Shown: positions 1,957-17,392 of the stretch, in pieces | Numbering within the stretch: the first letter of the stretch is position 1 | Layout: every line of letters starts with the position of its first letter | IMG/VR virus record: IMGVR_UViG_3300021964_000626 | Coordinates: 1 to 21,923 of that record | Source of the DNA: a virus | Direction: 5' to 3' (one strand) | Length of the DNA stretch: 21,923 nt | Position numbers and translations under genes: made by a program | The notes under the pieces: model-generated | What the model was told of the DNA's origin: nothing | Databases searched by the model: none | What the model saw: the letters and a program-made list of their open reading frames with translations, nothing else

Positions 1957-3431
1957 TACTTTTTATTGTTTAAATTCTGAACAATCTTTCTGATATTATC
2001 ACCAGGTTTGTAATTCATGACTGCTTTACCAACATCTGTAAGTTTACCTTTCTTATCATACATCATGTCAATCATTTTTAAGTCTGCTTTTGATAACTTT
2101 TCTTCAAGTGATTCTCTGTTCATCATTTTTTGATTTGAAAGTTTACCAATCAATGACAATACTGCTTGTTGCATATCTAAAATTGCTTGGTATTCTTTAT
2201 TATACTTTTTATCTTTAAGTTCTTTGTCACCTGCTTTTACAATTAAATGATAATTCTTTTTAAGTTTTTCTGCATCTTTAGATAACTTCTTCATTAAGTT
2301 GATTTCTACATCGGTGACTTCTACTAAATCAGGTGCATACTTTTGTCCATCTTCCCACATTGCTCTGTAGGCATCTTCTACTCTCATTTGTGATGGTGTC
2401 TTTGCTTTCTTTCTGAAGTCTCTCATGTCTTTTGGTAATCTCTCATCTTCGAAACCTTTATGTGGGTGTTGAGAGAACCCTAATGCTTTAAATTTATGCT
2501 TTGGTGCTTTATCAACATCTTGCATGTCTGATTCTTGCATTGATTCCTTTTCTCTTGTCTGCTTATCTTTGAGTTTTTTCATGTCTTGTGCATGTTTTAA
2601 GGCAAGTTTTGCCTTTGCTTCAGCATCTTCATCAATCATACTGTAAGAAGACATACCAAATTGTTTATGTATTCTATCGAGTAATTTCTTTTGGTCTTTT
2701 GGTGCAACTCCTAAAATAATGAGTGCGTTTCTACCGTCTTTTTTATATTTTATACCCTCGTCATCAAGCATCTTCATTACTTTTGCTCTATACCTAGGGT
2801 CTTGTGAAATACCAAATATTTCATTTACAGGTTTCTCACCTTTCTCTTTTTTAGAGATTGCAATAGCAGCTTGTTGAGCAGGAGAGACTGCTTCTTTTTG
2901 TACAGAATTCTTTTGCATCATTCTCTGTGCAATGTCAACAAGTGTAGAGATGTTTGATTTCTCCATTCTCTTCTTGTTTTGGTCGTTTACTTTATTGTAG
3001 ATTTGGTTAATCATTGATGCTGTAAACATATCAACCATTATGCCACCAACTTTCTTTGCACCTTTAGTGTCAACAATCTTTTGAATATCAGGCATAAGAT
3101 TCTTTTCAGTGAGATTTTCTTCTGCTATTTGATTTAATGATTGATTGTAAGTGAAAGATTCGTTTGCATATTTCAATGCGTTCTGAACTTCTTTTGATTT
3201 GAGAACTTTATCACCGTAAAACTTTTTGATTTCTTGACGTGCAATACTATCTGCACCACCTAAATCAAGTGCAACTTCTACTGCTTTTTTGATTGTAGCA
3301 TCATTGACTTTATTTCTACGAAAATAAGTAGATATTTCTCTGCCAGTTAGTTTTTGTTTACCATAAGGACCAAGGGGATTGACCTTACCGTCTTTATCTA
3401 ATATTTTTTTTGCTTCTGAAAATAAGTTCAT
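1956..3431 (-). CDS. Large lysine-rich helical protein, probable virion component (491 aa)
   Basis: A 491-residue, strongly helical and basic protein without a recognised catalytic motif. Visible parts are an N-terminal segment with GREISTYFRRNKVNDATIK (about 30-48), a Met-rich middle, a linker AAIAISKKEKGEKP of a type I have seen repeatedly in marine T4-like virion proteins, and a compact segment around PRYRAKVMKMLDDEGIKYK to APKDQKKLLDRIHKQFG. A charged coiled-coil-like stretch (KHAQDMKKLKDKQTREKES) follows, then a helical C-terminus. Several I/L-x-E sites (IAE, LTE near residues 100-110; LEE later) could be prohead-protease targets. It is coupled by TAATG to the genes on both sides. Scaffold/core protein or injected head protein are both possible; the evidence does not separate them. 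Confidence 0.78.
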   Translation of the reverse strand: MNLFSEAKKILDKDGKVNPLGPYGKQKLTGREISTYFRRNKVNDATIKKAVEVALDLGGADSIARQEIKKFYGDKVLKSKEVQNALKYANESFTYNQSLNQIAEENLTEKNLMPDIQKIVDTKGAKKVGGIMVDMFTASMINQIYNKVNDQNKKRMEKSNISTLVDIAQRMMQKNSVQKEAVSPAQQAAIAISKKEKGEKPVNEIFGISQDPRYRAKVMKMLDDEGIKYKKDGRNALIILGVAPKDQKKLLDRIHKQFGMSSYSMIDEDAEAKAKLALKHAQDMKKLKDKQTREKESMQESDMQDVDKAPKHKFKALGFSQHPHKGFEDERLPKDMRDFRKKAKTPSQMRVEDAYRAMWEDGQKYAPDLVEVTDVEINLMKKLSKDAEKLKKNYHLIVKAGDKELKDKKYNKEYQAILDMQQAVLSLIGKLSNQKMMNRESLEEKLSKADLKMIDMMYDKKGKLTDVGKAVMNYKPGDNIRKIVQNLNNKK

Positions 3432-3880
3432 TATCCTGATACCTTTTGTGCTAAATCTTTATCTGCTTTGCCCCATGTTCCTGATGATTTAGTTACGAAA
3501 CTATTGACTCTTGCCAATCCCCACTGTTGTGGATTAGTTCCTGGTCTATGTCCAGTTCTCCATGCGGCAACACCTCTATCATAAACTTTCTTTAAAATAC
3601 CGAGTGGCATTCCACTCTTGTCTGCCTTCTTCTGAAGTGCGGCATTTGATTCTTCTAAATTCTCTTCTGGTAATTCTTCGACTGCTTCTTTAAGATGAAC
3701 TTCGAACTCTTCGTTGTATGGAAATCCTTTTAAAGGATTATCAAATACTTGAGAGAAAAACTTTTTAGAATTTTCTTTTTTAGTCTTTTGGTCTTTTTGT
3801 ATGTAACTATCGACCATTTGACCTGGAGTATCTTTCTTATATTCCTTTTTCATCTTGTCTGTACCTATCTCTAAGGGCAT
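3431..3880 (-). CDS. Conserved phage protein with DUF5824-like C-terminal module (149 aa)
   Basis: The first half is charged and probably disordered (KKEYKKDTPGQ, DQKTKKENSKKFFSQVF, then an acidic ELPEENLEES stretch with L-E-E). The second half, about residues 85-149, is a compact module with KKVYDRGVAAWRTGHRPG and PQQWGLARVNSF followed by GTWGKADKDLAQKV. This VY.RG.AAW..GHRPG..P.QW...RV.SF signature is shared by many marine phage proteins, and I associate it with DUF5824. Its biochemical role is unknown to me. The ATG at 3880 comes 2 nt after the previous stop, and the gene ends in a TAATG overlap with the 491-residue gene. The placement suggests a virion or assembly protein. Confidence 0.75.
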   Translation of the reverse strand: MPLEIGTDKMKKEYKKDTPGQMVDSYIQKDQKTKKENSKKFFSQVFDNPLKGFPYNEEFEVHLKEAVEELPEENLEESNAALQKKADKSGMPLGILKKVYDRGVAAWRTGHRPGTNPQQWGLARVNSFVTKSSGTWGKADKDLAQKVSG

Positions 3881-3882
3881 TA

Positions 3883-4206
3883 TTATGTCTTTTCTTTAAT
3901 GTCTTTTTTCTTTTGGTCTTTTTCGTATTCTTCTACTTCGTTACAAGTATATTTCTTACCAGAAACTACGAACTCTTTATCTCCATTTTTTCTAGCAGCC
4001 ATCAATGCTTTTGTAAATGCGTTACCTTCGTCTTTCATTGCTTTACCGATTGCTTTACGTCTTTTGTGAAGATATTCATCAGAATCATCTACATCACCAT
4101 CGTTATCGATATCTGCATCTGCTTTGCCGACAGGGTCTAATTTCTTTTCTTCTAGACTTTCTATCATGAATGAACGAATGTCTTCTAATACATTTCTAGT
4201 TGTCAT
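3883..4206 (-). CDS. Small basic protein with an EF-hand/dockerin-type Ca-binding loop (107 aa)
   Basis: An N-terminal helical stretch (NVLEDIRSFMIESLEEKK) holds two possible I/L-x-E cleavage sites (MIE|S, LEE|K). It is followed by the loop D32-I-D-N-D-G-D-V-D-D-S-D43, which places Asp at positions 1, 3, 5, 7, 9 and 12 with Gly at 6, the ligand pattern of EF-hand or dockerin-type Ca2+ loops. A basic helix (YLHKRRKAIGKA) comes next, then a Lys-rich C-terminus. One loop alone gives weak or structural Ca binding. The start codon overlaps the upstream stop in ATGA, indicating coupling. Known: acidic Ca-loop proteins of this kind are frequent in marine T4-like phages. The role (head assembly or internal protein) is inference. 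Confidence 0.75.
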   Translation of the reverse strand: MTTRNVLEDIRSFMIESLEEKKLDPVGKADADIDNDGDVDDSDEYLHKRRKAIGKAMKDEGNAFTKALMAARKNGDKEFVVSGKKYTCNEVEEYEKDQKKKDIKEKT

Positions 4207-4775
4207 TGTTTGAGTTCCCCTTTTTCGAAGTAGTCAAACATCTTTTGTTTACCTTCTTCATTGAGTTTTAATTGTTTTGCAAGACGACCTAACATATTTC
4301 TTTCTGTTAGTTTCTCGACTGTTTTTTCTACTGTTACTTCTTCTTCTACTACTGGAGTTTCTTCGATTTCGACTTCGTCTTTGAGTGGTTTTACACCAGC
4401 ATCTTTGAACATTTTCATCAATGCATTGTTTGTAGCAAGTTTGATTTTGTTATCTTTGCCTAATGACTTTACGGTTTTTAAAAATCCTTGTGGATTTTGT
4501 TTCTGCATTCCTTGAACAACTTTAACACCAGTCATGTTTAACATCTTTGCGACACCATAACCAGCATCTTTATCGCCTTTTAGATTGAATAATTTATCAA
4601 TCATATCTCCAGCAGATGCCTCTAGTATTACTTCTTCTTCGAAAGATTGTAACTCTAGCTCGATTTCTTCGTCTAAAATCTCGTCCGCACTTTTTTCGAC
4701 ACTACCTTCTTTCAAAGTAATGTGATTACGCACTTCTTCGAGTTTATCTCTCCAGTTTTCTGATTTGTAACTCAT
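4203..4775 (-). CDS. Acidic helical protein, probable prohead-core or internal protein (190 aa)
   Basis: The first 55 residues are highly acidic and helical (ADEILDEEIELELQSFEEE) and contain several L/I-x-E motifs before small residues (LKE|G, ILE|A). From there a Lys-rich helical part follows (GDMIDKLFNLKGDKDAGYG, then LKTVKSLGKDNKIKLATNN), then an acidic Val/Glu repeat (ETPVVEEEVTVEKTVEKL) and a short helical C-terminus. An acidic propeptide ending in prohead-protease-type sites is typical of T4 core proteins. The gene is directly preceded by the late-type box TATAAATA at 4783-4790, only 7 nt before the ATG, so it probably opens a late transcription unit running left. No family name is assigned. 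Confidence 0.75.
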   Translation of the reverse strand: MSYKSENWRDKLEEVRNHITLKEGSVEKSADEILDEEIELELQSFEEEVILEASAGDMIDKLFNLKGDKDAGYGVAKMLNMTGVKVVQGMQKQNPQGFLKTVKSLGKDNKIKLATNNALMKMFKDAGVKPLKDEVEIEETPVVEEEVTVEKTVEKLTERNMLGRLAKQLKLNEEGKQKMFDYFEKGELKQ

Positions 4776-4782
4776 AGTCTAT

Positions 4783-4790
4783 TATTTATA
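4783..4790 (-). promoter_or_regulatory. T4-late-type promoter box TATAAATA before the 190-residue gene
   Basis: Exact TATAAATA on the minus strand with 7 nt to the ATG at 4775. The TAA in the box is the stop codon of the 94-residue gene. It is the only exact T4 late consensus found by eye in the window and stands at the head of the head-internal-protein cluster, which fits late expression. Confidence 0.7.
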
Positions 4791-5070
4791 TTTCCATTAT
4801 TCTTACTACTAGTTCACCGTTACCTTTAATTAGTCTATGATACGTGTTTTTATGTATCATTATTTCTTTTCCGACCTCTAAAGATTCTGGAAGACAATCT
4901 TCTTTTTGAAATTGCCAACCATTTGCAGTAAGTGTTGTTACTTTTCTTGTTCTTTTATCACGGTGCCAAACAAGTTCTTCTTCTAAAACGTCTTTATCAA
5001 ACGTTCTTATTATATAGTGCTGATTTGTACCTTCTTGTACAAGATGCTTTTCAGTATAAGGTTTAGTCAT
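4786..5070 (-). CDS. Conserved marine-phage protein, possibly cupin-like (94 aa)
   Basis: Short beta-rich protein with a WHRDKRTRKV segment, NGWQFQKEDCLPESL, and a C-terminal GKEIMIHKNTYHRLIKG followed by ELVVRIMEI. The pattern of a Trp-His-Arg-Asp block, a WQFQ strand and a hydrophobic-His-Arg-hydrophobic-Lys-Gly turn is one I recognise from conserved small proteins of marine T4-like phages. The C-terminal half resembles one strand pair of a small cupin-type barrel, but the classic cupin metal ligands are not complete, so I claim no enzymatic role. The start overlaps the 84-residue gene by 8 nt. Its stop codon TAA forms the middle of the late promoter box for the next gene. Confidence 0.7.
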   Translation of the reverse strand: MTKPYTEKHLVQEGTNQHYIIRTFDKDVLEEELVWHRDKRTRKVTTLTANGWQFQKEDCLPESLEVGKEIMIHKNTYHRLIKGNGELVVRIMEI

Positions 5071-5317
5071 CTACTTCGGGGTCGTAGTTGTTGGTTTTCT
5101 CTTTATAACCATAAAAACTGCCTTCTTTTTCTATATTAAACAATTTTTGTACGTAATTCTCTGCAACATCTTCTGCATATGACTCAGAATGATTGTGTAC
5201 TTTACGTGTCTCTACAAGAAGTTGGTCTAAATATAAATCAACTTCGAACCCTTCTTTTGCTTTTCTGATGATTGCTCTTCTGTCATCACCCATGTATTCA
5301 CTTATCACATTACTCAT
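5063..5317 (-). CDS. Conserved small hypothetical protein (84 aa)
   Basis: Reads as a small alpha/beta protein: MSNVISEYMGDDRRAIIRKA, a strand pair around EGFEVDLYLDQLLVETRKVH, then an acidic helix (ESYAEDVAENYVQKLFN) and a polar tail. The strand pair followed by an A-E-N-(W/Y)-V helix looks like short conserved proteins found in marine T4-like phages. I know no function. The ATG at 5317 has a good AGGAG site six bases upstream, so it is probably translated on its own, and it overlaps the next gene by 8 nt. There is no membrane segment and no cleavage tag. Confidence 0.72.
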   Translation of the reverse strand: MSNVISEYMGDDRRAIIRKAKEGFEVDLYLDQLLVETRKVHNHSESYAEDVAENYVQKLFNIEKEGSFYGYKEKTNNYDPEVDD

Positions 5318-5330
5318 TATATACTCCTAT

Positions 5331-5906
5331 TTACATTATTATTCCAATATATGGTATCAATATTACTGCCCAAAAAAAACTTCCACCCCCACTTAGACCT
5401 ACCTGTTTCGCAAATCTAGGAAGTCGACAACTCCAGTAACTTGCAGAGGTTTTATCATTTGCTGTATCACAATTATGCCTTGAAACAAATGATGCTCTTG
5501 CACTTGGGTCATCAAACTTAACTTTCAAACCTGTGGTATCGCCAAAAGTAACTTTCTTAATGTTTTTTGTTGACGGGTCACGAACATAAACGTAATATTT
5601 TTTCGGACCACCTGCTTTAGGTTTGTTGAGCTCTGGCTCATCTTCTTCTGCTATTTGCATCATTGGTGAATCCAATGGTACAAGTTCGTTTTCATAGATA
5701 TCGTATTCACCTATGTCTGTTTCTAATATCTCTCTGTTGATTTCAGATAAACGTAATTTACCCTCTAAAAGTCTGCTTCTTGCTTCTTTGAATACTTCAT
5801 AGTACATCTGAGAACCAACTCTGTATGGATTATCGTATAGTGATACTCCTGATTCTACAATCTCGTCTAATACTGTATCAATTGCTTGTTCTTTAAATGT
5901 TTTCAT
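5331..5906 (-). CDS. Conserved phage protein with Cys/His module and hydrophobic C-terminal tail (191 aa)
   Basis: The N-terminal half is helical and acidic (MKTFKEQAID..., then LDE and IVE|S cleavage-like sites). After a linker comes a compact module at about residues 102-175: KKYYVYVRDPSTKNIKKVTF, a Gly-rich turn, RASFVSRHNC and SASYWSCRLPRF. The RH.C ... YWSC arrangement is characteristic of a conserved marine-phage module and might bind a metal, but only two Cys and one His are evident. Homologues as I remember them finish soon after a G-rich stretch and an aromatic pair. Here the frame continues through SFFWAVILIPYIGIIM, a 15-residue hydrophobic tail. A run of eight T residues just before it is a possible slippage site. 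The start is coupled by TAATG. Confidence 0.72.
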   Translation of the reverse strand: MKTFKEQAIDTVLDEIVESGVSLYDNPYRVGSQMYYEVFKEARSRLLEGKLRLSEINREILETDIGEYDIYENELVPLDSPMMQIAEEDEPELNKPKAGGPKKYYVYVRDPSTKNIKKVTFGDTTGLKVKFDDPSARASFVSRHNCDTANDKTSASYWSCRLPRFAKQVGLSGGGSFFWAVILIPYIGIIM

Positions 5907-6715
5907 TATAAGTATGTATTGTCGACTAAAATAAAGTTAAATGATGCAGCTGCAACTACACCACCTGTTCCTGCAGTTGCACGTAAATCTATGTCTGACT
6001 TTTCTGTAAGTTTCAATGGTATATCAAACTTTTTGATGTATTGACTACCGTATGCAGAACCTGCCTGTTGTATTCTGAAGACGTTATCAAACGGTCTAAA
6101 GTATAAATCCATTTCTAATTCTGCGTTTTTAGGTGAAGAGAACTCAACGTCTGTAATAAATGCAGTATGACCTGAAGGAACTGTATAAACACTCATAAGT
6201 GTTTGGTTATTACCTGTAAGAATCTTTGCAACGACTGTTCCTGTTCCTGAACTATAGTGTGCAGAAATATCACCAGCAAAATCTGTTGAACTTGCATTAT
6301 ACATTCTGAATAATCTTCTGTAAGTGTTTTGTGATACGACTGCTGTTGTTCCTGTAAGTGTAATTGTTTCTGAAGTAAGAACCCAATCTTGATTTAGACC
6401 TTGTATAAAAACATCTTGTGTGTCTGTTGTAGTTGATTTGAGGTATACATTGTCTGCACCACTATCCCATGTAGACCATGGGTATAAACTTGAACCATCC
6501 CATATAGTTTCTTCACTACCATTTGCAAGGTCGGGGTTTTTACCAAATTTATGAACCGATGAATATCCTTGAACATCACCGTTTGCGATAGGAACATTAG
6601 ATGCCGCACCAAACGTATTGATGATATTACCATCTTTGTCTGCAAGTCCTACTACCTCAAATAGTGTTGTATGTTGAGGAAGATAACTTTGACTATCTTT
6701 GTTCCATTGTGCCAT
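5906..6715 (-). CDS. Beta-rich putative virion protein (head decoration or fibre-like, 269 aa)
   Basis: A Ser/Thr/Val-rich protein with alternating beta-strand pattern and no catalytic motif. The N-terminal third is Trp/Gly/Asn-rich (TIWDGSSLYPWSTWDSG). The rest has a segment FRMYNASSTDFAGDISAHYS, then TVVAKILTGNNQTLMSVYTV followed by PSGHTAFITDVEFSS. This 'GDGQTLMAIYTVPAGKTAY' type of segment is widespread in marine phage structural proteins, where it forms a beta-sandwich thought to belong to decoration or fibre proteins. The C-terminus continues as strands (FDIPLKLTEKSDIDLRAT). The start overlaps the HNH-containing gene in TAATG, and the gene is expected to be late. The exact position in the virion cannot be told. 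Confidence 0.75.
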   Translation of the reverse strand: MAQWNKDSQSYLPQHTTLFEVVGLADKDGNIINTFGAASNVPIANGDVQGYSSVHKFGKNPDLANGSEETIWDGSSLYPWSTWDSGADNVYLKSTTTDTQDVFIQGLNQDWVLTSETITLTGTTAVVSQNTYRRLFRMYNASSTDFAGDISAHYSSGTGTVVAKILTGNNQTLMSVYTVPSGHTAFITDVEFSSPKNAELEMDLYFRPFDNVFRIQQAGSAYGSQYIKKFDIPLKLTEKSDIDLRATAGTGGVVAAASFNFILVDNTYL

Positions 6716-8142
6716 TATTTTTCCTTTGCAAGTAAATCTGCTATCTTAAGTAATGTTGCTTTATCTTTTTTTGAAATATTTTTAAGTTGCCTATCTAATG
6801 CAATCTTTCTGAGTGACTTACCATATTCTTTAGTAGACTCATTCTTGCTCAAGTAAGCTGCAATTGCCATGTCTCTAATCTTTTTATCTGATTTGCCTTT
6901 AAATTGTGGTGCATCTGACTTTCTAAAGTCATCGATATAATCTTGTTGACTTGCATTTTTATCTAAAACTTCTCTCAATCTTGGTTCTTTTCTATTATAG
7001 TTTTGTGATACGATTGATAGATTAGACTTGTCGTTATTCATAGGATTGTTATCCTTATGATGGACATCTTTACCCTTGATATCTTTAAAATTCTTTAGAC
7101 TTCTACGTGCTTCGTTTCTTTTCTGCCTTCTTTTGACTTGCTCTGGTTTAGAATGATAATTTGCATACTCTTTTTTGTAATCTCTCTCTTCCTCAACATC
7201 TTCTTTCTTATTTCTTTTATCATAGTCTTTGATAGATTTTCTTGCAATTTTCATCATTGCCTTTTGATGTGCTTTCTGTTGAGACTTAGTTTTTTCTCTC
7301 TGTCTGTCTGCAAATCTTTCTTCTATTTCTTCACCCATAGCGAGTGTTGATAATTGATTGATAATAATTTGTAGTGTGCTTGGACTCATTGCAGATAGAG
7401 TTGTAAGTTGGTCTTTTGTAAGACCTTTTATTTTGGATAGTTTTTGTTTAATTGCTTTCTTATCAAGTTTTGCTTCTGCTAACTCATCGCCCATTTTTAA
7501 GAATAGGGTTCCTTTCTGTTGCTTCTTATCTGATACAGTCATTCCGACCATTCTAGCAAATTGATTGATAAGACTCACACCATCACCTGGTCTTCTGCTA
7601 TACATGTCTTGCATTTTCTTTTGAACTTCCTTTGCAATTGTTTTGATGACTTGATGAGCAGGTGCTACAAGTTTACCTTCTTCTAACTCTTCATCTATTT
7701 GCTCTGATTGAGAAAGTTCTGACATGAGATAGTCATGACATACGTCTAAGTAATCGTCTGCTTTTGTAAGTTTGCTATTCCACCATGCTGGATAATCACC
7801 GTCTTCTTTGACAACTCTCTTAAGATTGTTTGCGTTTCTAACGATGTTTTCTAATGAATTTTGTGCCATATCACCATCATAGTTTTCACCAAACATTTGT
7901 TTGAATTTCTTTGTATGTTGAGAAGGTCTGGTCTTTGCACCAGCATCACCTGGTGCTGGTTTGTATGCCGCAGGATTATCATCGTCCATTTTGGCACCCT
8001 TTTTAAAGTGTCTGTCTCGTGCTTCTTTTGATTTTTTACTTACACCTGAGAAGTATTTTGAAGGTTGAGTTCCTTCACGGTCTTTGATATCTTTATCTTG
8101 TGCGACCTTTTTAGTTTCTAATATTTTCTGTAATAAGTCCAT
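6715..8142 (-). CDS. Probable virion protein with embedded HNH endonuclease motif (475 aa)
   Basis: A large basic, mostly helical protein. The N-terminal region has a short helix MDLLQKILE|T (I-x-E type motif), then a Lys/Arg-rich segment with RDRHFKKGAKMDDDNPAAYK and KHTKKF-type repeats known from marine T4-like structural proteins. Around 115-145 is YPAWWNSKLTKADDYLDV; around 150-156 ELEE|G is another possible processing site. At about 320-390 a HNH-type module is visible: a basic helix, then DVHHKDNNPMNNDKSNLSIV, with the H361-H362 pair and Asn369/370 and Asn374 fitting the HH-N-N core, followed by NYNRKEPR. The C-terminus is helical. The late-type box CATAAATA at 8148-8155 lies 5 nt before the ATG. 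Inference: a virion nuclease perhaps injected or acting in packaging; alternatively a homing-type HNH insertion. Confidence 0.78.
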   Translation of the reverse strand: MDLLQKILETKKVAQDKDIKDREGTQPSKYFSGVSKKSKEARDRHFKKGAKMDDDNPAAYKPAPGDAGAKTRPSQHTKKFKQMFGENYDGDMAQNSLENIVRNANNLKRVVKEDGDYPAWWNSKLTKADDYLDVCHDYLMSELSQSEQIDEELEEGKLVAPAHQVIKTIAKEVQKKMQDMYSRRPGDGVSLINQFARMVGMTVSDKKQQKGTLFLKMGDELAEAKLDKKAIKQKLSKIKGLTKDQLTTLSAMSPSTLQIIINQLSTLAMGEEIEERFADRQREKTKSQQKAHQKAMMKIARKSIKDYDKRNKKEDVEEERDYKKEYANYHSKPEQVKRRQKRNEARRSLKNFKDIKGKDVHHKDNNPMNNDKSNLSIVSQNYNRKEPRLREVLDKNASQQDYIDDFRKSDAPQFKGKSDKKIRDMAIAAYLSKNESTKEYGKSLRKIALDRQLKNISKKDKATLLKIADLLAKEK

Positions 8143-8147
8143 GATAC

Positions 8148-8155
8148 TATTTATG
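8148..8155 (-). promoter_or_regulatory. T4-late-type promoter box CATAAATA before the HNH-containing gene
   Basis: CATAAATA on the minus strand, with 5 nt (GTATC) to the ATG at 8142. The T4 late promoter is TATAAATA, and marine T4-like phages also use CATAAATA. The TAA inside the box is the stop codon of the nucleotidyltransferase-kinase gene. Initiation a few bases downstream of the box would make an mRNA that begins at or next to the ATG, and no Shine-Dalgarno sequence is present. Confidence 0.65.
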
Positions 8156-9395
8156 ATTTTTTACTTAGTAACTCTTGCTCTTTCCATTTAGTGGCAAGTT
8201 TGTTACCAGGAAATGCTGAAGACCATGTGAGTAGTTTACTATAGATTTTAGTTGCTTTGGTTTCAAGTGACTTTAAATCATCGTCATTTTTTACTTCGAC
8301 AAAATCTTTACCGAATATCTTTTTAAGATTTTTTGCATTTTCTTGTGCTTTTTCCCAATCTTTTTGCACAATGTTATGTGGTAATTTTCTTGCTCTCTTG
8401 TTATTTCTGTTTAATGCATTTTGTAAACTTGCATTGACAAATATCATTTTTGACTCATATCCTATCTTATCTAACATATCTTTATACAATTTAACTTTTT
8501 TAAGGTCTGCACTTGTGGTATCGAATATTAAACCAAGTCTACCATCTATATAAATGTCCATATTTTTTGCAGTAATCTTTTTTGCTTTTGCTCGAATTGG
8601 GTCAATTATTGAAAAATCTGCACCTCTTAAGTCAAGTGTAAGTCCTGCTTTTTTCAATCCGTTTTCAAATGCTTTATCTGTATTAACTAATTTTAGTCCT
8701 AATGCTTTCAAAGATAGTTTGTCTACAACAGTTGATTTACCACTTCCTGGACCACCTGAAAGGAATACTGCTTTGAAAATACCAGGGTCATATACACCTT
8801 CAGTGATTAAGTCTTCAATCATGTAATTAGGCAAAGTTTCTTCAACTATTCCCATGCCTTTTTTAACTGCTTTGAATAGTTTAAGTTTGTCTGCATTGCT
8901 TCGAGAAGGCACACCTTCTTTAAAATTATCATAATCATTCTTCTCTGCATATGCTCTCATCTTAGATGCTGACATTCCTGAAACGTCATCAGAATCTGGG
9001 TCACGTTCTCCTGCAGAGATTACATTAATCTCTTTGAAGTCATAAAATCCATGTCTTGCTTTTACACCATTATATTTCTTTAATAGATTATCAAACTCTC
9101 TGACTCTATCTGAGCCAACCATCATGTTAACCTTTTCGTAACCTTGATTTTGTAATTCGTTTGCGATATCGAATACTGTTCTTGCACTGACATCAGGCAC
9201 ACCAACTTTTTTACCAAAGAACTTTCTAAGAAATGATATCTTTTGTTTGTGATTAAGTGGATTCTTTAACTTATCGTTAGAATGTGATGTGAATAGAAGT
9301 TTATCTCCACTTAATTTTGCGAGTTTGTTAACAAGTAACTGATGACCTGTTGTAGGTGGATTAAATCTTCCAAATGTAAAACTTGCTTCTTTCAT
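8151..9395 (-). CDS. Bifunctional nucleotidyltransferase / P-loop kinase (PNK- or NadR-like fusion, 414 aa)
   Basis: Two domains. Residues 1-160: nucleotidyltransferase of the HxGH superfamily with FGRFNPPTTGH at 8-18 (T-x-G-H variant), MVGSDR near 92-97 and SGMSASKMR near 139-147, corresponding to the ISxTxIR-type motif. Residues 205-370: P-loop kinase with GGPGSGKST at 214-222, VNTD at 237-240, LIFDTTSAD near 289-297 and RNNKRARKLP at 330-339. These match the Walker A, acid, 'DTN' and lid positions of T4 polynucleotide kinase. ATG 9395 is chosen over a TTG four codons upstream because it sits in a TAATG overlap with the ligase-like gene. Known: NadR joins an NMN adenylyltransferase of this type to a ribosylnicotinamide kinase; T4 Pnk phosphorylates 5' ends. 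Which activity applies here is not decided by sequence, but the ligase and 3' phosphatase nearby favour end repair. Confidence 0.85.
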   Translation of the reverse strand: MKEASFTFGRFNPPTTGHQLLVNKLAKLSGDKLLFTSHSNDKLKNPLNHKQKISFLRKFFGKKVGVPDVSARTVFDIANELQNQGYEKVNMMVGSDRVREFDNLLKKYNGVKARHGFYDFKEINVISAGERDPDSDDVSGMSASKMRAYAEKNDYDNFKEGVPSRSNADKLKLFKAVKKGMGIVEETLPNYMIEDLITEGVYDPGIFKAVFLSGGPGSGKSTVVDKLSLKALGLKLVNTDKAFENGLKKAGLTLDLRGADFSIIDPIRAKAKKITAKNMDIYIDGRLGLIFDTTSADLKKVKLYKDMLDKIGYESKMIFVNASLQNALNRNNKRARKLPHNIVQKDWEKAQENAKNLKKIFGKDFVEVKNDDDLKSLETKATKIYSKLLTWSSAFPGNKLATKWKEQELLSKKS

Positions 9396-10594
9396 TATTT
9401 GTCCCAATCTTTGGCAACTGTAAAGTTATTTAAACTGAACTCCATTCTGTCTACTAATTTCACTGCTTTACCTTCTTTATCAATTGCTACATAACCCTCT
9501 GGGTTCACTGTTTTGAATCCTGTATCTGTTTTTTGGAATGTACCAATACTTTTAACTCTGTTTAATGAATCAACAATTATCTTTTTAGATTCTATCAGTC
9601 CTCTTTGAAAAATTGTCAATGCATCGATTGTTGTTTTAAGACTTCTCAACTCTCTGAGTGTTTGCTCTTTGATTTCTGTCTTAAGTTGTTTGTGTTTATC
9701 TGTCTTTAACTTTGCAATTACTTTCTCGTCAAAGTATTTATCGACATGATTTAGGTAGTCTTTGTACGATGGGTCGAATGTGCCTGACCTAATCTTTGTA
9801 TTTGCATATGTTTTATAAGTGGCACCTGCCGCCTTTGTTTGTAGCATCTTATTGATATCATTGAATGTTTGTAAATTCTTTTTAGTAATCTTTCTAAATG
9901 TTTTACCAACTACCGATAATGCTCTCGATAATTTAACTGCCTCTTTTGCAGTCATTTTTCCTGTACCAGATACATCTTTGTATGATGCATCGTCTACCCA
10001 TACTTCTGAACTATTGCCTAGTGATGATGTATCAACTCCAAACTTTGCTGACATATCTTGTAATGTACTACCTGAATACGATGTATGAAATACTATGCCT
10101 AGTTTTGCATTCTCTATCTGATTGCCTAGTTGTGAACCTTTGAGTGCGGCATACGTAATTGTGTTTGGGGTAAAGGTAACGTAATCTTCCCCACTAATCT
10201 TCTTGTCTTTTTTATCTGAATCAGTGAACATCAAATCACCTTGAATGATGCCTGAATAGTTTAACTTAGATAGATATTTGAATGATTCGACAAACTTATC
10301 CTGTAAATCACCAGATAAATCGTCTTTGATTTCTTGTTCTGTTGTATAGAATTTTGGCTCTTTATTGAATAAAGATTTCTTTGCGATGATAAATTGATTC
10401 GTTTCTGGGTGTTTGCCAACAAATAAAGCAGGAGCACCGTCCCATTTTACAGTCATGTTGACACTTTTAGATACATTGCCTTTGAGCATATCTCTCAGTG
10501 ACCTGAGAAAGTTTATAGATGCACGTCCACCATCAATACCATTGTTGATGATTTCGTCTTCTAAATGTTCTAAATGTAGATTTTTAACTGCCAT
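9395..10594 (-). CDS. Ligase-like covalent nucleotidyltransferase (RNA/DNA ligase superfamily, 399 aa)
   Basis: Motifs occur in the order of covalent nucleotidyltransferases. Motif I is K50-W-D-G-A-P, where the Lys would carry the AMP. A motif III-like IIQGDLMF lies at 116-123. A IIIa-like LGIVFHTSYSG lies at 165-175. Motif IV is EGYV at 366-369 and motif V is KAVKLVDR at 376-383. The stretch between IIIa and IV (about 190 residues, mostly helical and basic) is much longer than in compact RNA ligases and looks like an inserted domain. Motif III has GDL in place of the usual GEL. Inferred activity: sealing or adenylating RNA or DNA ends, in the same operon as a 3' phosphatase and a kinase. The ATG at 10594 follows a sigma70-like promoter by 8 nt with no ribosome-binding site. 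mRNA-capping enzymes share the fold and are a less likely alternative. Confidence 0.8.
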   Translation of the reverse strand: MAVKNLHLEHLEDEIINNGIDGGRASINFLRSLRDMLKGNVSKSVNMTVKWDGAPALFVGKHPETNQFIIAKKSLFNKEPKFYTTEQEIKDDLSGDLQDKFVESFKYLSKLNYSGIIQGDLMFTDSDKKDKKISGEDYVTFTPNTITYAALKGSQLGNQIENAKLGIVFHTSYSGSTLQDMSAKFGVDTSSLGNSSEVWVDDASYKDVSGTGKMTAKEAVKLSRALSVVGKTFRKITKKNLQTFNDINKMLQTKAAGATYKTYANTKIRSGTFDPSYKDYLNHVDKYFDEKVIAKLKTDKHKQLKTEIKEQTLRELRSLKTTIDALTIFQRGLIESKKIIVDSLNRVKSIGTFQKTDTGFKTVNPEGYVAIDKEGKAVKLVDRMEFSLNNFTVAKDWDK

Positions 10595-10602
10595 AGTACT
10601 GT

Positions 10603-10631
10603 ATTATAACATTTCCAAAATGAAATGTAAA
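10603..10631 (-). promoter_or_regulatory. Sigma70-like promoter with palindromic spacer before the ligase-like gene
   Basis: On the minus strand: TTTACA (10626-10631), 17-nt spacer, TATAAT (10603-10608), then 8 nt to the ATG. A perfect inverted repeat ACATTTC-N6-GAAATGT (10609-10628) fills the spacer and overlaps the -35 box, so it could be an operator or bind a regulator. With initiation about 7 nt after the -10 the mRNA would be leaderless or nearly so. Confidence 0.7.
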
Positions 10632-10640
10632 GCTCAGTAC

Positions 10641-10648
10641 TATTTATG
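10641..10648 (-). promoter_or_regulatory. T4-late-type promoter box CATAAATA upstream of the ligase-like gene
   Basis: CATAAATA on the minus strand, 46 nt before the ATG at 10594 and upstream of the sigma70-like promoter. The preceding bases AAAAAT and following GTA are also shared with the box at 8148-8155. If real, the ligase and kinase genes would have both an early and a late start site. Unlike the other three boxes it does not overlap a stop codon. Confidence 0.5.
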
Positions 10649-10661
10649 ATTTTTAAAAGAC

Positions 10662-11117
10662 TTATTCTGAAGGTTCAGATGAATCAGATTCTGCGGCAAT
10701 CATTAAGTCACATTGTGCAATCTCGTCTACCATTTTTTGAATCATTTCTGCTTTAGTTTTTGCTACACCATCAGATGTAAAGTTTTCATTTACAAAATCT
10801 TGCCAGAGAGAGTGAACATGATTTTCGACTGAATTACCATTTGAACCATCTAAAGATGAGTTATTAGACCTCCAATCTGCCCAAAATGCTGATGCACCAC
10901 CTGTTCCTGTCCATGAGTGAGTGTGATTTAGATTAGGAGTTACGGTATCGTCTGTTACGTTAACTTCGAGTGTCAATGTATCAGAAGTATCTTCTAAACA
11001 TCTTTTATAAAAGTCTGCAATATCCTTTCTTTCTGTAAGAGAATATGTTAGTAACTCTGAACCATCTATTGTTTGAACTGTTCCAGAAGGAAAATCTGCT
11101 ATGTTATTAAAAGGCAT
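10662..11117 (-). CDS. Hypothetical protein between repair-type genes (151 aa)
   Basis: I do not recognise this family. The protein has an N-terminal MPFNNIADFPSGTVQTIDGS, a helical LTERKDIADFYKRCLED, a beta part (TLTLEVNVTDDTVTP) and a His/Trp-rich central stretch (LNHTHSWTG, FWADWRSNN, ENHVHSLWQDF). The C-terminal half is helical (TKAEMIQKMVDEIAQCDLMI) with a Ser/Glu-rich end. The repeated H-x-H elements (HTH, HVH) might bind metal, but no known motif is complete. The ATG at 11117 has a CGGAG ribosome-binding site 5 nt upstream. It lies in the same direction between the phosphatase/57-residue pair and the ligase-like gene. A structural protein is also possible. Confidence 0.72.
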   Translation of the reverse strand: MPFNNIADFPSGTVQTIDGSELLTYSLTERKDIADFYKRCLEDTSDTLTLEVNVTDDTVTPNLNHTHSWTGTGGASAFWADWRSNNSSLDGSNGNSVENHVHSLWQDFVNENFTSDGVAKTKAEMIQKMVDEIAQCDLMIAAESDSSEPSE

Positions 11118-11147
11118 AAAAACTCCGTTATAATTTTATACTATTAT

Positions 11148-11321
11148 TTAGTTTTTTGCTAACGTGTGACCTGATATTTTTGTTTCTATTCTGTAAATTT
11201 TTAATTTTAGATTGAGTGCGAGTTTTTCGTCCTTTTCTTTTTTGGCAACTCTTAACTCTCTTTTAAGTCTGACCTTCTCTGTAAGAAGGTCGATAACTTC
11301 GTTTGGTTTCAATGCTTTCAT
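11148..11321 (-). CDS. Small basic helical protein (57 aa)
   Basis: Starts at ATG 11321, which overlaps the stop of the phosphatase gene in TAATG. A longer in-frame start upstream would run back into the phosphatase gene and is not needed. The protein reads MKALKPNEVIDLLTEKVRLK and continues with Lys/Arg/Glu-rich heptad-like helix (KRELRVAKKEKDEKLALNL), so it may form a short coiled coil, and it ends GHTLAKN. No catalytic motif. Coupling to the phosphatase suggests a partner or accessory subunit, but this is inference from position only. Confidence 0.65.
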   Translation of the reverse strand: MKALKPNEVIDLLTEKVRLKRELRVAKKEKDEKLALNLKLKIYRIETKISGHTLAKN

Positions 11322-11764
11322 TAGAAGTCGCCCTCTGCAACTTGAACACATGTAGTTCCTCTGTTTCTCCACATGTCAACAACTTTGTTTCTGTCATCGA
11401 AGACAACATCAATCTTACCACCAAGTTCTTCAAACTTGTCTGCAAGTTCTGATTTGAATTCTGCATCGCATCTGAAATCGCCATTAGGTCTAAGAAAGAC
11501 TCCTTTATGACCATCACCAATCCATTCTGAAATCTGTTTCTCAGTAACTTCTCTTTCTGATTCGTTTCTTGCAGAAAAGAATGCAACGTCATCACCTTGC
11601 TTAATGAATCTTTTTGCGATATCACAAACCCATTGAACAGGAGTGTCGTTTACTGTTTCTTTTCTGAACATAGACCAATCTTTACTATCGCCGGACACAA
11701 AATGTCTTCTATGTTCGACATCTGCGATTGTTCCGTCTACATCAAAAATTATTGTCTTTTTCAT
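11321..11764 (-). CDS. Stand-alone polynucleotide 3'-phosphatase (PseT C-terminal-like HAD, 147 aa)
   Basis: HAD-superfamily motifs are complete: motif I D8-V-D10-G-T; motif II Ser64 in FFSARNE; motif III Lys104 in AEFKSELADKF; motif IV D123-D124 in VVFDDRNKVV. The ending MWRNRG..CVQVAEGDF is nearly the same as the end of the T4 polynucleotide kinase 3'-phosphatase domain (MWRRIG..CWQVASGDF), as I remember it. This marks it as a PseT-type phosphatase that removes 3'-phosphate or 2',3'-cyclic phosphate from RNA or DNA ends. The 5'-kinase half of T4 PseT is absent here; a kinase domain lies three genes downstream. The ATG at 11764 is 6 nt after a TATAAT box with no ribosome-binding site. A free nucleotide phosphatase of the same fold is a less likely alternative. 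Confidence 0.88.
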   Translation of the reverse strand: MKKTIIFDVDGTIADVEHRRHFVSGDSKDWSMFRKETVNDTPVQWVCDIAKRFIKQGDDVAFFSARNESEREVTEKQISEWIGDGHKGVFLRPNGDFRCDAEFKSELADKFEELGGKIDVVFDDRNKVVDMWRNRGTTCVQVAEGDF

Positions 11765-11770
11765 ACTATT

Positions 11771-11800
11771 ATTATACTAAAAAATGGCTGTTTCTGTCAA
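11771..11800 (-). promoter_or_regulatory. Consensus sigma70-like promoter before the 3'-phosphatase gene
   Basis: On the minus strand: TTGACA (11795-11800), 18-nt spacer, TATAAT (11771-11776). Both hexamers match the bacterial consensus fully. The ATG at 11764 is only 6 nt after the -10 box, so transcription should begin at or beside the start codon and give a leaderless mRNA. The sequence CTTGACAGAA is shared with the lipoprotein promoter at 13256-13285. Confidence 0.82.
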
Positions 11801-11802
11801 GC

Positions 11803-13227
11803 TCATTCTAGATATTCTAAACATATTTGATATGCTTCTGTTCCAGTGTAAGTTTGTGAATTGCTTCTACATTCCTGTGTGGTTGTTGTTATGCTAAACA
11901 CCCATTCATCATTATAAAGTCTTTGATAATCACCACTATAGAGATAAGTGGTATTATAATCTACGTACTGCATTGTAGTTTCAAACGAAACTAAATCATC
12001 ATAGATGTTTTGAAAGGTCGTTGTATCTCTAAACTCAAAGAGATTCTCTAAGTCATGGTCAAAGTTATAATTAGTTTCATTTGTAAAAAAGATATCAAAC
12101 CTTTGTGTTGCTGAGAAGTTACTATAAAATCTGCCTACATCACCTTCAGTGTATGCTTTTCTACCTTCACCTAAAAATACAACCATATAAGAAATACTAT
12201 TGTCTTCAGTAACCTGTTCTATTGTAACTGGCATACCTTCTACAATATTATCCTTTGAAAGATACGTTATCGATGTTTGAAAGTTTGCATATGTCTGAAT
12301 GTTTTCAAAAGTTGCAGTGTATAAATCACCGTTACTATCTATTAGATTACCGTTTGTATCTACTACTAAATCTTGGACTCTGAATATCTCTTCTCTAATA
12401 AAATTATCTGTTTCTGTTTGTCTGTCAACACCGATAACATTGATTGCAAGACTATCAAACTGAGTGTTTGTCATAATATAGTCTACGATACCAGCATCTA
12501 TCTGTATTCTGAGTGTCGTATTGTATTGATTTTCTATCGTTGCTAATACATCAAAACCTGTTTGCATGAAATCAACAAGTCTTTCTGCAATTGCTTGTTT
12601 TGTTGCATCACCTGACTCAATGTAGTCTTCATAGAAATAAGTTATATTAACATTAAATTTGTTTTGAAGTTCACCTATGAGACTATTGAATCTGAACTTC
12701 ACGTCTTCTTCAACTACTTCTCCTTGTTGACCACAACCTTCACTTACGGTCATTTCTGGAGTTGCTATATCATTTAAATACGATGCAATGATTGTCGTAA
12801 ATGGTGTGACATTTGCACTTCTATCATCAAAAGGAATGAAATACAGGTCGTATGCTTCTTCTACATAACCTCTGTCTTCATCGTAAGCACCGACAGGTAC
12901 TTCTGCAATTTTAGGTCGATTATAAAAACAACTTGCATCATAGGTTTCTATATCAGAGAACTGACTAGTCTCCCAATAATAAGTGTTTGTTTCATTGTCA
13001 TACAATGCACTAGGTTCTTCTGCATCTTGAATGAAGTTGTAGTTCATATCTACAAATACATTTGCACCTGAAATGTAACCATCAATAACTTTTGTGTTAC
13101 CGATTGTCGTACTAGTTTGAGGTGGTGGTGTTGATGAGTTGAACTCTAAATTACCAAGACTTGCACCTGAACTTCCGCCACATGATGTAAGTAGAATCGT
13201 AAATGTTGTTATTAAAAAATATCTCAT
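11803..13227 (-). CDS. Phage-encoded lipoprotein (474 aa)
   Basis: The N-terminus MRYFLITTFTILLTSC is a short signal peptide with one Arg, a hydrophobic core and the lipobox L13-T-S-C16, followed by GGSSG. This predicts export, lipid attachment at Cys16 and anchoring in the host envelope. Next comes a short Ser/Pro linker and VIDGYISGANVFVDMNYNFI followed by D-A-E-E-P-S, a segment type common in bacterial surface lipoproteins. The remaining about 350 residues are acidic and Tyr/Phe/Asn-rich with a mixed strand/helix pattern and few Cys; I see no enzyme motif. It has its own full-consensus promoter and a GGAGA ribosome-binding site. Known: phage lipoproteins can block superinfection by masking receptors or inhibiting DNA entry. 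That role is inference here; acquisition from a bacterial host is plausible. Confidence 0.82.
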   Translation of the reverse strand: MRYFLITTFTILLTSCGGSSGASLGNLEFNSSTPPPQTSTTIGNTKVIDGYISGANVFVDMNYNFIQDAEEPSALYDNETNTYYWETSQFSDIETYDASCFYNRPKIAEVPVGAYDEDRGYVEEAYDLYFIPFDDRSANVTPFTTIIASYLNDIATPEMTVSEGCGQQGEVVEEDVKFRFNSLIGELQNKFNVNITYFYEDYIESGDATKQAIAERLVDFMQTGFDVLATIENQYNTTLRIQIDAGIVDYIMTNTQFDSLAINVIGVDRQTETDNFIREEIFRVQDLVVDTNGNLIDSNGDLYTATFENIQTYANFQTSITYLSKDNIVEGMPVTIEQVTEDNSISYMVVFLGEGRKAYTEGDVGRFYSNFSATQRFDIFFTNETNYNFDHDLENLFEFRDTTTFQNIYDDLVSFETTMQYVDYNTTYLYSGDYQRLYNDEWVFSITTTTQECRSNSQTYTGTEAYQICLEYLE

Positions 13228-13255: not shown

Positions 13256-13285
13256 ATTATACCAAATAAACTTGTGTTCTGTCAA
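13256..13285 (-). promoter_or_regulatory. Consensus sigma70-like promoter before the lipoprotein gene
   Basis: On the minus strand: TTGACA (13280-13285), 18-nt spacer, TATAAT (13256-13261), both perfect. The TGA in TTGACA is also the stop codon of the glycosyltransferase gene. The ATG at 13227 is 28 nt downstream of the -10 box and preceded by GGAGAC, so this mRNA has a normal short leader. Full consensus boxes predict use by the unmodified host polymerase, i.e. early expression. Confidence 0.85.
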
Positions 13286-14784
13286 GTACTTTCTGTATAA
13301 TCTGTTATTAACTCCATTCCGTAATCGTTGTTACCTTCTGGTATTTCTATTCCTTCTTTGAAGATAAGTCTATTAGACTTAAATGGTTCGTAGTCAACAA
13401 AGTGATGCCATCTTCCATATTTCCAAACAACTCTTGCTACGTCTGGGTGCATATCTGCCAACATCTGACTCTTGTTAATTGTTCCATCAGTGTTGTAACC
13501 TTCTTTGTTTATCTTGTCTGAGTTTTCTGCATGATAAAACTCTGCTGTATTACCACCTGCAACTGTTTGTGTAGCAGTTTTACCTTGAAGAAATGCATTG
13601 AACTGAACAGTGCAATCACCATCTTTCAATACTCTCAAACATAAATCAGTATCTTCGTTATATCTACCTCTCCATCTATGCTTACAATCATTTCTAATTA
13701 AAAGGGCAGAATAGATTCTTGTGTTTGCTACGTAAGGTGGTCTGTATAAATCTGATGGCACAAAGAATCTGTATTGAGGACCAGCAACAGGAATGTTTTC
13801 ATATCTATCAACAAAGTCTTCCATTGCTTTGAAACCTACACCACTTTCAAATCGTATTCTTTGATTGTTATGTAATCTGTAGAAGTCTGCGATGTTATCA
13901 TCAAAGACCCAATGTGAAGTTGCACCAAGTTCAATACTATGGTCCCATGCCCAATTTCTGGCACGACCAGGTCCGTCACCATGATTACTGAATGGGGCAA
14001 CTAATAGTTCAGCATAAGTGAGGCCAAACTTTTCAAGTGCCTTTTCATACAGTTCTTTCTCTTGTGGTTCAATCACAATATAATGAGGTATCTTCATACG
14101 ATTGAATGATTTAGAAGTAATCATTGAATCATATCTTGTCTTTGATACAATATACATTGGATATTTTGGTAAATCATGTCTGTCTGGTTGAATCCATCTC
14201 AGATTGAAATTTTTAGGGAATACTTTTCTTGGGTGCCAGATTGCTTTTGTTTTATCATTGTATGATTCACCAAGTCTATTCTGTAGTTCTTTGTATGCCT
14301 CTTCAGTTCTTATCTTAATTGTAATTGACCTGTAAGATTCTATCTGAGGTTGATTGAACGATGGCATATTTTGCCAATGAAGACTGTATCTATTCTCTCT
14401 CGACAAATCAGTTCTTGGTTGTGGTTGTCGTTTTGGTTTAGCAACCATTCGTGATGTGTCTGCGATTGTAATAGGTTGCTCGTAAGTATCACCGAAAAAG
14501 TTTGTGTTAGGGTCTGCGAGTGGAAAGTAAGTTGATGTTTGTTTTGTATCAATATACTGACCTAGTTTCTCACAAAGGTCTTTGAATGAATCTAAGTCTT
14601 GTATATGGACAATTAAATGTTTGTAATTACCTTCTAGTTCAGCATCTGATTTAGGTATCTCAGGCAAAACTGAAGCAAACTCTTCACCGTCTTCTGTAAA
14701 TTTATCCAGTGTTGCTTTGTATTCGTCTTTGATTCTACCTTCTTTATCTAGGTAGTTATCATATTGTGCTGATTCTTTTACCAT
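13282..14784 (-). CDS. TAGT-type glycosyltransferase, probably for DNA base hypermodification (500 aa)
   Basis: Residues about 208-420 form a GT-A-like glycosyltransferase: YPMYIVSKTRYDSMITSK, a PHYIVIEP strand, LVAPFSNHGDGPGRARNWAW, then HWVFDDNI with D295-D296-N297 as the likely metal/sugar-nucleotide site. RYNEDTDLCLRVL (E377-D378) and EFYHAE follow. This pattern fits the TET/JBP-associated glycosyltransferase (TAGT) family described in phages that decorate modified bases. The N-terminal part holds two copies of a roughly 35-residue module (54-88 and 151-185), both with a K-Q-T or K-T-K segment ending in an aromatic residue and Pro. The start follows the helicase stop by 2 nt with TTTTAAGG upstream. 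The oxygenase or hydroxymethylase that would make its acceptor is not in this window. Cell-surface sugar transfer is the main alternative. Confidence 0.78.
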   Translation of the reverse strand: MVKESAQYDNYLDKEGRIKDEYKATLDKFTEDGEEFASVLPEIPKSDAELEGNYKHLIVHIQDLDSFKDLCEKLGQYIDTKQTSTYFPLADPNTNFFGDTYEQPITIADTSRMVAKPKRQPQPRTDLSRENRYSLHWQNMPSFNQPQIESYRSITIKIRTEEAYKELQNRLGESYNDKTKAIWHPRKVFPKNFNLRWIQPDRHDLPKYPMYIVSKTRYDSMITSKSFNRMKIPHYIVIEPQEKELYEKALEKFGLTYAELLVAPFSNHGDGPGRARNWAWDHSIELGATSHWVFDDNIADFYRLHNNQRIRFESGVGFKAMEDFVDRYENIPVAGPQYRFFVPSDLYRPPYVANTRIYSALLIRNDCKHRWRGRYNEDTDLCLRVLKDGDCTVQFNAFLQGKTATQTVAGGNTAEFYHAENSDKINKEGYNTDGTINKSQMLADMHPDVARVVWKYGRWHHFVDYEPFKSNRLIFKEGIEIPEGNNDYGMELITDYTEST

Positions 14785-17236: not shown

Positions 17237-17392
17237 TTATTCTTCTTTTGTTAAATCTTGTATTGAATCGCACTTGACATGCTCTTTCATCATTTCTAAT
17301 AAGATTTTGATATTGGTTTCTATATGAATTATGAAACCGAAAACAATAACAAACATTATAATATAGAAACAATCTAGTGTAGTTATTGTCAT
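17237..17392 (-). CDS. Small single-span membrane protein (51 aa)
   Basis: Opens with MTITTLDCFYIIMFVIVFGF, of which about residues 7-23 form one hydrophobic membrane helix. It ends in a charged, helical cytoplasm-type tail containing LLEMMKEHVKCDSIQDLTKE. The ATG lies inside an ATGA overlap with the stop of the nuclease gene, strong evidence that it is translated. Without this gene the space from 17176 to 17388 would be the longest gap in the window. Small membrane proteins of unknown role are frequent among T4 early/middle genes. Function cannot be told; a host-membrane or anti-superinfection role is only a guess. Confidence 0.72.
   Translation of the reverse strand: MTITTLDCFYIIMFVIVFGFIIHIETNIKILLEMMKEHVKCDSIQDLTKEE

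Follow-up and report, generated by a model that had tools for sequence, protein, structure and literature searches.

Does a phage locus that combines a PNKP-type 3' phosphatase, a KxDG ligase-like protein and a nucleotidyltransferase (NTase) joined to a P-loop kinase represent a rearranged T4-type repair system, as a preliminary description had proposed, or something else? The locus lies in IMG/VR virus record IMGVR_UViG_3300021964_000626, positions 1 to 21,923, a stretch of 21,923 nucleotides referred to here as the window.

Layout of the locus and its phosphatase

The three genes are all on the minus strand, arranged as first described, with two small genes between those of the phosphatase and the KxDG protein (Table 1). 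The KxDG protein belongs to Pfam DUF6267, a family with no annotated function. Homologues of the 74-residue product often precede DUF6267 in related phages, and those of the 151-residue product do so in some relatives. The start of the NTase-kinase gene, better placed at ATG 9395 than at TTG 9407, overlaps the DUF6267 stop codon by one base. The sigma70-like promoters hold as individual sites, two perfect 12/12 matches and one 11/12 match lying directly upstream of genes, but not as an enrichment, since the window scan gave 18 sites overall versus 22.6 in shuffled sequences. Only 7-9 bases separate the -10 boxes from the start codons of the phosphatase and DUF6267 genes. The T4-like late promoter motif CATAAATAGTA occurs at two sites, which is chance level.

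Table 1. Features of the locus and its surroundings in the window
Feature	Position	Strand	Evidence
HAD PNKP-type 3' phosphatase, stand-alone, 147 aa, optional accessory	11321..11764	-	HAD_PNKP E 6e-27; 4xrp/1ltq alignment
Small ORF, 74 aa, GTG start, overlaps HAD gene	11148..11372	-	no family
Small ORF, 151 aa	10662..11117	-	no family
DUF6267 ligase-like protein	9395..10594	-	PF19782 E 9e-100; invariant motif columns; AF2 model
HIGH-type nucleotidyltransferase + P-loop kinase fusion, NadR-like architecture	8151..9395	-	Pfam, Foldseek
Sigma70-type promoter, perfect 12/12, spacer 18, before HAD gene	11771..11800	-	promoter scan
Sigma70-type promoter, 11/12, spacer 17, TG-extended, before DUF6267	10603..10631	-	promoter scan
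Sigma70 site, perfect 12/12, before lipoprotein gene	13285-13256	-	promoter scan
TET-associated glycosyltransferase (TAGT)	13282-14784		Pfam E 4e-43

The lone PseT-type phosphatase was borne out: residues D8, D10, S64, K104, D123 and D124 and the terminal GDF are all present, and the protein can be aligned over its full length to the phosphatase domains found in Pnkp1 (4xrp) and T4 Pnk (1ltq). The proposed three-gene module was not. The phosphatase is optional, being found in 17 of 58 window-type loci and 7/17 genomes, often elsewhere in the genome, and HTVC008M, Melnitz and all the cyanophages tested lack it. A conserved trio was thus rejected, and what is conserved is a pair, DUF6267 and the NTase.

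Motifs and predicted fold of DUF6267

At the level of sequence, DUF6267 bears the signature of the ligase superfamily, kept across very divergent relatives. The motifs are I (K50xD52G53, invariant), Ia (K73), III (Q118G119D120), IV (E366G367xV) and V (K379), and the five positions are invariant or nearly so among 67 (A1) and among 74 non-redundant homologues. K50xDG, K73, D120, EG and K379 are retained even where identity falls to 25-28%, including in relatives whose helical insertion (residues 216-345, ahead of motif IV) is mostly gone. The ordered motif set was found in 281 of 290 DUF6267 ORFs, the misses being mostly fragments, in 33 of 89 known phage ligases and in 1 of 1453 other ORFs at least 250 aa long.

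In the AlphaFold2 model (pLDDT 84.8), K50 is placed at a strand end, D120 within a strand, EG before a strand and K379 within one, and motif order and strand context appear to match those of the covalent nucleotidyltransferase superfamily of ligases and mRNA capping enzymes. The protein departs from that superfamily in having GD instead of GE at motif III (AD in some distant forms), Lys at Ia, a single Lys in motif V rather than hKhK, the large helical insertion and no evident OB-fold domain. The predicted fold weakly resembles ligases, which were the only coherent class among the Foldseek matches in the PDB (6wbo, probability 0.54; 3rr5, 0.33; 9n82, 0.33; 5tt6; 6dt1); none reached E 1e-3 and the best-ranked matches were spurious. 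Against viral models, significant matches were limited to DUF6267 relatives.

The ligase-like character first assigned to the KxDG protein stands as a motif signature in divergent relatives and not as membership in the Rnl1 and Rnl2 families (PF09511, PF09414): the Pfam scan gave, beyond DUF6267, only a chance-level DUF2884 match, and the LigA adenylation domain (PF01653) did not match the window's protein either. Comparison by hhalign with phage RNA-ligase and DNA-ligase families gave no signal, the ligase-versus-ligase positive control being weak too. Searches of PDB sequences with the DUF6267 sequence and profile returned zero ligases, and an Rnl2-type query against viral contigs yielded no usable family. 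DUF6267 was unmentioned in the literature searched.

The nucleotidyltransferase partner and its phage hosts

The fusion of a nucleotidyltransferase to a kinase was confirmed, with CTP_transf_like at residues 11-106 and Zeta_toxin/AAA_33 at 212-377. The first domain contains GRFNPPTTGH, GSDR and GMSASKMR, and the protein thus combines, as NadR does, a HIGH NTase bearing (I/M)SxSxxR with a P-loop kinase. NadR structures were the top three whole-length matches in Foldseek (8x7f, E 1e-7, then 1lw7 and 6gzo), in the same domain order, NMN adenylyltransferase followed by nicotinamide riboside kinase. The likeness to NadR holds for structure but not for family assignment: the protein scores 23 bits for TIGR01526 (NCBIfam) versus a 341-bit cut-off, its kinase is nearer to Zeta_toxin/AAA_33, and its NTase is tied to DUF6267. 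For three of four NTases the best NTase-family match in NCBIfam was an NMN/NaMN adenylyltransferase, with scores far under cut-off in every case. In T4 Pnk the kinase residues are Asp35 and Arg38, the latter being essential. The kinase of the window has Asp240, but three positions further on, in the place of Arg38, it carries an invariant Phe. Because of this Phe and of an architecture closest to NadR, 5'-end polynucleotide kinase activity is doubtful.

The NTase is found in all 20 genomes with DUF6267, usually adjacent, and lies downstream of it in 80/80 window-type loci, within 600 bp in 69; in S-PM2 the two are fused. DUF6267 is near-universal in T4-like cyanophages, with 371 Synechococcus-named and 61 Cyanophage records (376 and 61 for gp41). 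Its gene is located beside that of the gp41 helicase. The DUF6267 proteins of S-PM2 and P-SSM7 are labelled T4-GC71 and the P-SSM7 NTase T4-GC190, annotated until now as hypothetical and possible cytidyltransferase. The T4 g30 DNA ligase has been reported absent from cyanomyoviruses (PMC2984593). A known DNA ligase was found alongside DUF6267 in four of 17 genomes, and an NAD+ ligase (LigA, PF01653) in none of 20. The presence of a normal DNA ligase beside DUF6267 in these four weakens the idea that DUF6267 simply replaces gp30.

One member of the pair often carries at its N-terminus a T4-type capsid targeting sequence, ten residues with an aromatic at 4 and 7, Leu/Ile at 8 and Glu at 10, the same pattern as in the T4 internal head proteins (IPI-IPIII, Alt). 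The strict 10-mer is found on DUF6267 in 71 of 80 cases in one clade and on the NTase in 65 of 107 in the window's clade. It thus shifts between partners, and it is lost in the window's subclade, being absent from the window's own DUF6267 and NTase-kinase. Unlike the T4 internal head proteins, the tagged proteins are enzyme families and the tag is mobile between them. The NTase has been detected in published proteomes of cyanophage virions, a repeated detection for which a plausible packaging signal is now at hand. The virion table of S-CREM2 does not list DUF6267, and the S-SZBM1 paper does not name its gene number. Piggy-back packaging of the untagged partner is unsupported by the published virion lists, which are themselves shallow.

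Possible functions of the pair

We tentatively favour, at somewhat less than even probability, a divergent nucleic-acid ligase (DUF6267) working with an NMN-adenylyltransferase-like partner, a pair conserved in marine T4-like phages and joined by accessories. DUF6267 would then be a diverged representative of the superfamily that unites polynucleotide ligases and capping enzymes. Its Lys50 would become adenylylated and the AMP be transferred to a 5'-phosphate end, after which the enzyme would close the nick or break in the nucleic acid. The partner would be a HIGH-superfamily enzyme of NMN-adenylyltransferase type, here joined to a P-loop kinase in the same way as in NadR, a combination that would lead from nicotinamide riboside to NMN and on to NAD+. 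The partner may supply the adenylyl cofactor or recycle it, for instance by returning the NMN from an NAD+-using ligase to NAD+; the resemblance of the partner is what suggests NAD+ use. The phosphatase would be an optional helper that renders 3'-phosphate ends ligatable. Because one partner is tagged in several lineages, the system could be packaged in the head and take effect upon entry.

In the reading proposed originally, the phosphatase would clear 3' phosphates, the kinase would act on 5'-OH ends and DUF6267 would ligate RNA, countering anticodon nucleases. The locus does share with T4 Pnk (PseT) and Rnl1/Rnl2 a PNKP-type phosphatase, a P-loop kinase (a Zeta_toxin/AAA_33 match, with a weak match to polynucleotide kinases in PHROG at E 1e-7) and a KxDG protein, and the phosphatase, DUF6267 and NTase-kinase occur together in all five large contigs tested of the window's clade. 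However, the phosphatase is here a separate protein that many relatives lack, the kinase sits on a HIGH NTase, the constant partner of DUF6267 is the NTase and not the phosphatase, and DUF6267 lies outside all Rnl families. Vibrio phage EniLVp02 encodes, besides DUF6267 and the NTase, a complete Pnk of T4 type and also RNA ligases, and the pair therefore differs from the RNA-repair set of T4. The kinase looks NadR-like and lacks the Arg38 position, so the data are better explained by something other than a rearranged T4 tRNA-repair kit, which we consider unlikely.

NAD+ salvage, in which the NTase(-kinase) would rebuild NAD+ against depletion and DUF6267 would be no ligase but a modifier of protein or RNA that uses an adenylyl group or NAD (AMPylation, capping), is rather unlikely. 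The NadR-like architecture speaks for it, and phages are known to encode NadR and to rebuild NAD+ (PMC9503650), but the NTase falls far under the NadR cut-off and both the motifs and the gp41-helicase neighbourhood of DUF6267 suit nucleic-acid work. That DUF6267 is an enzymatically inactive head or core protein, its motifs coincidental to a conserved fold, appears very unlikely: despite the capsid targeting sequences of one clade and the weakness of the structural matches to ligases, its invariant residues are few and of catalytic type, and the motif set turned up in a single control ORF. Least probable is nucleobase or DNA hypermodification, with kinase and NTase activating a group that DUF6267 would transfer. 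The TAGT glycosyltransferase neighbour (Table 1) points that way, as do 2OG-Fe oxygenases encoded close to the locus in Melnitz, syn9 and S-SZBM1, but among the fetched loci no others than the two closest relatives (L085, L086) have the glycosyltransferase, and the DUF6267-NTase pair occurs without it.

A bolder form of the favoured ligase-and-partner reading, to which we assign a low probability, is that DUF6267 is an unrecognised ligase whose dedicated NMN-adenylyltransferase recycles its cofactor, that the pair is packaged and injected in several lineages, and that it fills the place of the ligase that marine T4-like phages apparently lack. Whether cyanomyoviruses encode distant ligase homologues or use the host enzyme has been asked before (PMC2984593). 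DUF6267 provides a concrete ligase candidate in almost every cyanomyovirus genome, with named putative catalytic residues and a constant partner, and the missing-ligase question is therefore directly testable.

The DUF6267 protein and its relation to ligases

The KxDG protein of the window belongs to Pfam family DUF6267 (E 9e-100) and also to PHROG 455, which is listed as of unknown function; a literature search found no mention of the name DUF6267. Searching with the window protein gave 414 phage records containing it; searching with the syn9 form gave 469. By organism name, DUF6267 is present in 371 Synechococcus-named and 61 "Cyanophage" records, compared with 376 and 61 for the gp41 helicase, so that almost all T4-like cyanophages have DUF6267. 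Stenotrophomonas phage DLP_6 and Vibrio phage EniLVp02 carry relatives as well. The family also occurs on a 188-kb contig of a bacterial isolate genome (Nonlabens xiamenensis 1Q3; L422), possibly from a co-sequenced phage or a prophage.

The invariant columns of 67–74 non-redundant homologues include K50, D52, G53, K73, D120, E366, G367, K379, and R383; K50xDG, K73, D120, E366-G367, and K379 are kept in relatives at 25–28% identity, in some of which the helical insertion is largely missing. The ordered ligase-type motif set, written as a regular expression, matched 281 of 290 DUF6267 ORFs, 33 of 89 known phage ligases, and one of 1453 other ORFs at least 250 aa long, a long nucleotidyltransferase (NTase) polyprotein. 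In the confident AF2 model (pLDDT 84.8), the K follows a strand, the D lies inside a strand, EG precedes a strand, and the further K is inside a strand, positions as in ligases. A Foldseek search of the PDB gave no match with E below 1e-3, and the only coherent group among the weak matches comprised DNA ligases, Lig4, T4 Rnl1, and T4 DNA ligase. Profile comparison with ligases was negative, its positive control being weak too. We judge, rather than calculate, that DUF6267 is quite probably a member of the ligase-type superfamily.

In the genomes tested, DNA ligase PF01068 was found in 4/17 and the RNA ligases PF09414 and PF09511 in 2/17 and 3/20, respectively; the NAD+ ligase PF01653 was found in 0/20. 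None of the four was detected in cyanophages, HTVC008M, Melnitz, or contigs of the window's clade, where tested. T4 gene g30 has been described as missing from cyanomyoviruses, the existence of distant homologues being left open (PMC2984593). DLP_6, EniLVp02, and two metagenomic phages keep a DNA ligase beside DUF6267, which speaks against a role as a mere DNA-ligase substitute.

Organization of the locus

Related phages are listed under Kyanoviridae: Pelagibacter phage HTVC008M, Methylophilales phage Melnitz, and cyanophages. Transcription on the minus strand of the window, a 21.9-kb virus fragment from IMG/VR, runs from a glycosyltransferase through a lipoprotein, the HAD phosphatase, two small ORFs, the KxDG protein, and the NTase-kinase to more phage genes. 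The sigma70-like promoters proposed in the preliminary description hold as two perfect sites and one near-perfect site immediately upstream of genes; the total number of promoter-like sites did not exceed that in shuffled sequences. The sigma70-like -10 boxes within 11764-11800 and 10594-10631 end 7–9 bases before the start codons, so transcripts would be leaderless or almost so.

Additional features of the window
Position	Feature	Remarks
1-243 and 1708-1956	Two genes with exact capsid-targeting 10-mers	MKSFKEYITE, MKSFKDFLEE
11803-13227	474-aa protein, lipobox-like N-terminus (LLTSCGG)	Own perfect sigma70 promoter
13282-14784	TET-associated glycosyltransferase (TAGT)	Between gp41 and the locus; E 4e-43
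17389-17829	SNase-type nuclease gene	
21056-21511	Phage lysozyme gene	

Among the fetched loci, the TAGT gene is present only in the two closest relatives and may be a sign of glycosylated DNA bases. The 474-aa protein, frequent in relatives, matched no Pfam family.

The NTase lies downstream of DUF6267 in all 80 window-type loci (within 600 bp in 69), is present in 20/20 DUF6267 genomes or records tested, and forms a single protein with DUF6267 in S-PM2. In EniLVp02, the gene directly after DUF6267 (L306:7056-7943), annotated "DNA helicase", is a misannotated HIGH-type NTase homologue. NadR ranks first in a whole-length Foldseek search with the NTase-kinase. In NCBIfam, three of the four NTases had an NMN/NaMN adenylyltransferase as their best NTase-family match, each time with a score far under the cut-off. 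In about 104 of the examined loci, the kinase and the NTase form one protein; in HTVC008M, the kinase has a gene of its own. The kinase has a P-loop, an Asp of the catalytic type, and a basic lid that is conserved, but the residue corresponding to Arg38 of T4 Pnk is an invariant Phe. SKYFSG..PAAYKPAPGD, DUF5824, and EAVSPAQ modules, separate genes at 1956-8142 of the window, are fused after the NTase into long polyproteins in relatives (L297:9281, L002:10377, L003:9592), with LxEA-like sites between the modules.

Capsid targeting sequences

Internal head proteins of T4 carry a 10-residue capsid targeting sequence, with residues 4 and 7 serving targeting and 8 and 10 processing (PMC9026906). 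In the DLP_6-type clade, 71/80 DUF6267 ORFs matched a strict pattern for it, as did 65/107 NTase ORFs in the window's clade, compared with 0/489, 19/1567, and 60/679 other ORFs of three locus sets, many of the 60 being further tagged genes of the same region. NTases are published virion proteins in S-CREM2 (N-terminus MKNFSSFLTEA) and S-SCSM1 (MKSFLQFLKEA); that of S-SZBM1 begins MRFRQFIIEA. The cyanophage "citidylyltransferase" T4-GC190 was detected in S-SM1 virions (PMC3037559). The available text of the virion-NTase papers proposes NAD+ synthesis on entry and makes no mention of a capsid tag on the NTase (PMC10665884, PMC9602691).

DUF6267 is absent from the S-CREM2 virion table, the S-SZBM1 paper does not refer to it by gene number, and the DUF6267 proteins of both phages lack the tag, as do the window NTase (MKEASFTFGRF) and the window DUF6267 (MAVKNLHLEH). 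In L085 and L090, the closest relatives, the NTase is likewise untagged. In DLP_6-type loci (L225-L304), more genes with T4-type capsid-targeting N-termini lie upstream of DUF6267; one encodes a P-loop kinase (L301:4153), another a HAD-like protein (L272:4713), and several encode proteins of unknown family. This region has the appearance of a variable cassette that encodes head-packaged proteins. The two exact 10-mers in the window likewise suggest packaged internal head proteins.

Possible roles of the conserved pair

The preliminary description had proposed a rearranged T4-type tRNA-repair system. All the phosphatase residues it named are there, and Pfam and PDB searches group this HAD protein with polynucleotide-kinase phosphatase domains. 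The phosphatase was found in 7/17 of the tested genomes, among them each of the five large contigs from the window's clade, and lies between gp41 and DUF6267 in 17/58 complete intervals; 45 of 75 phosphatase-centred loci have no DUF6267 nearby, and in one genome having both, the two are about 35–40 kb apart. For phages also carrying the phosphatase, tRNA repair may apply, at a lower probability than the reading centred on DUF6267 and the NTase.

The steady unit is the ligase-like enzyme with the NMNAT-like enzyme, the kinase and 3' phosphatase being additions in the window's lineage. In the simplest mechanism, DUF6267 would seal nicks or ends, and its NTase partner would provide or recycle the adenylyl cofactor. 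We infer that NAD+ may link the two; if so, the pairing of DUF6267 with the NTase and their fusion in S-PM2 would be explained.
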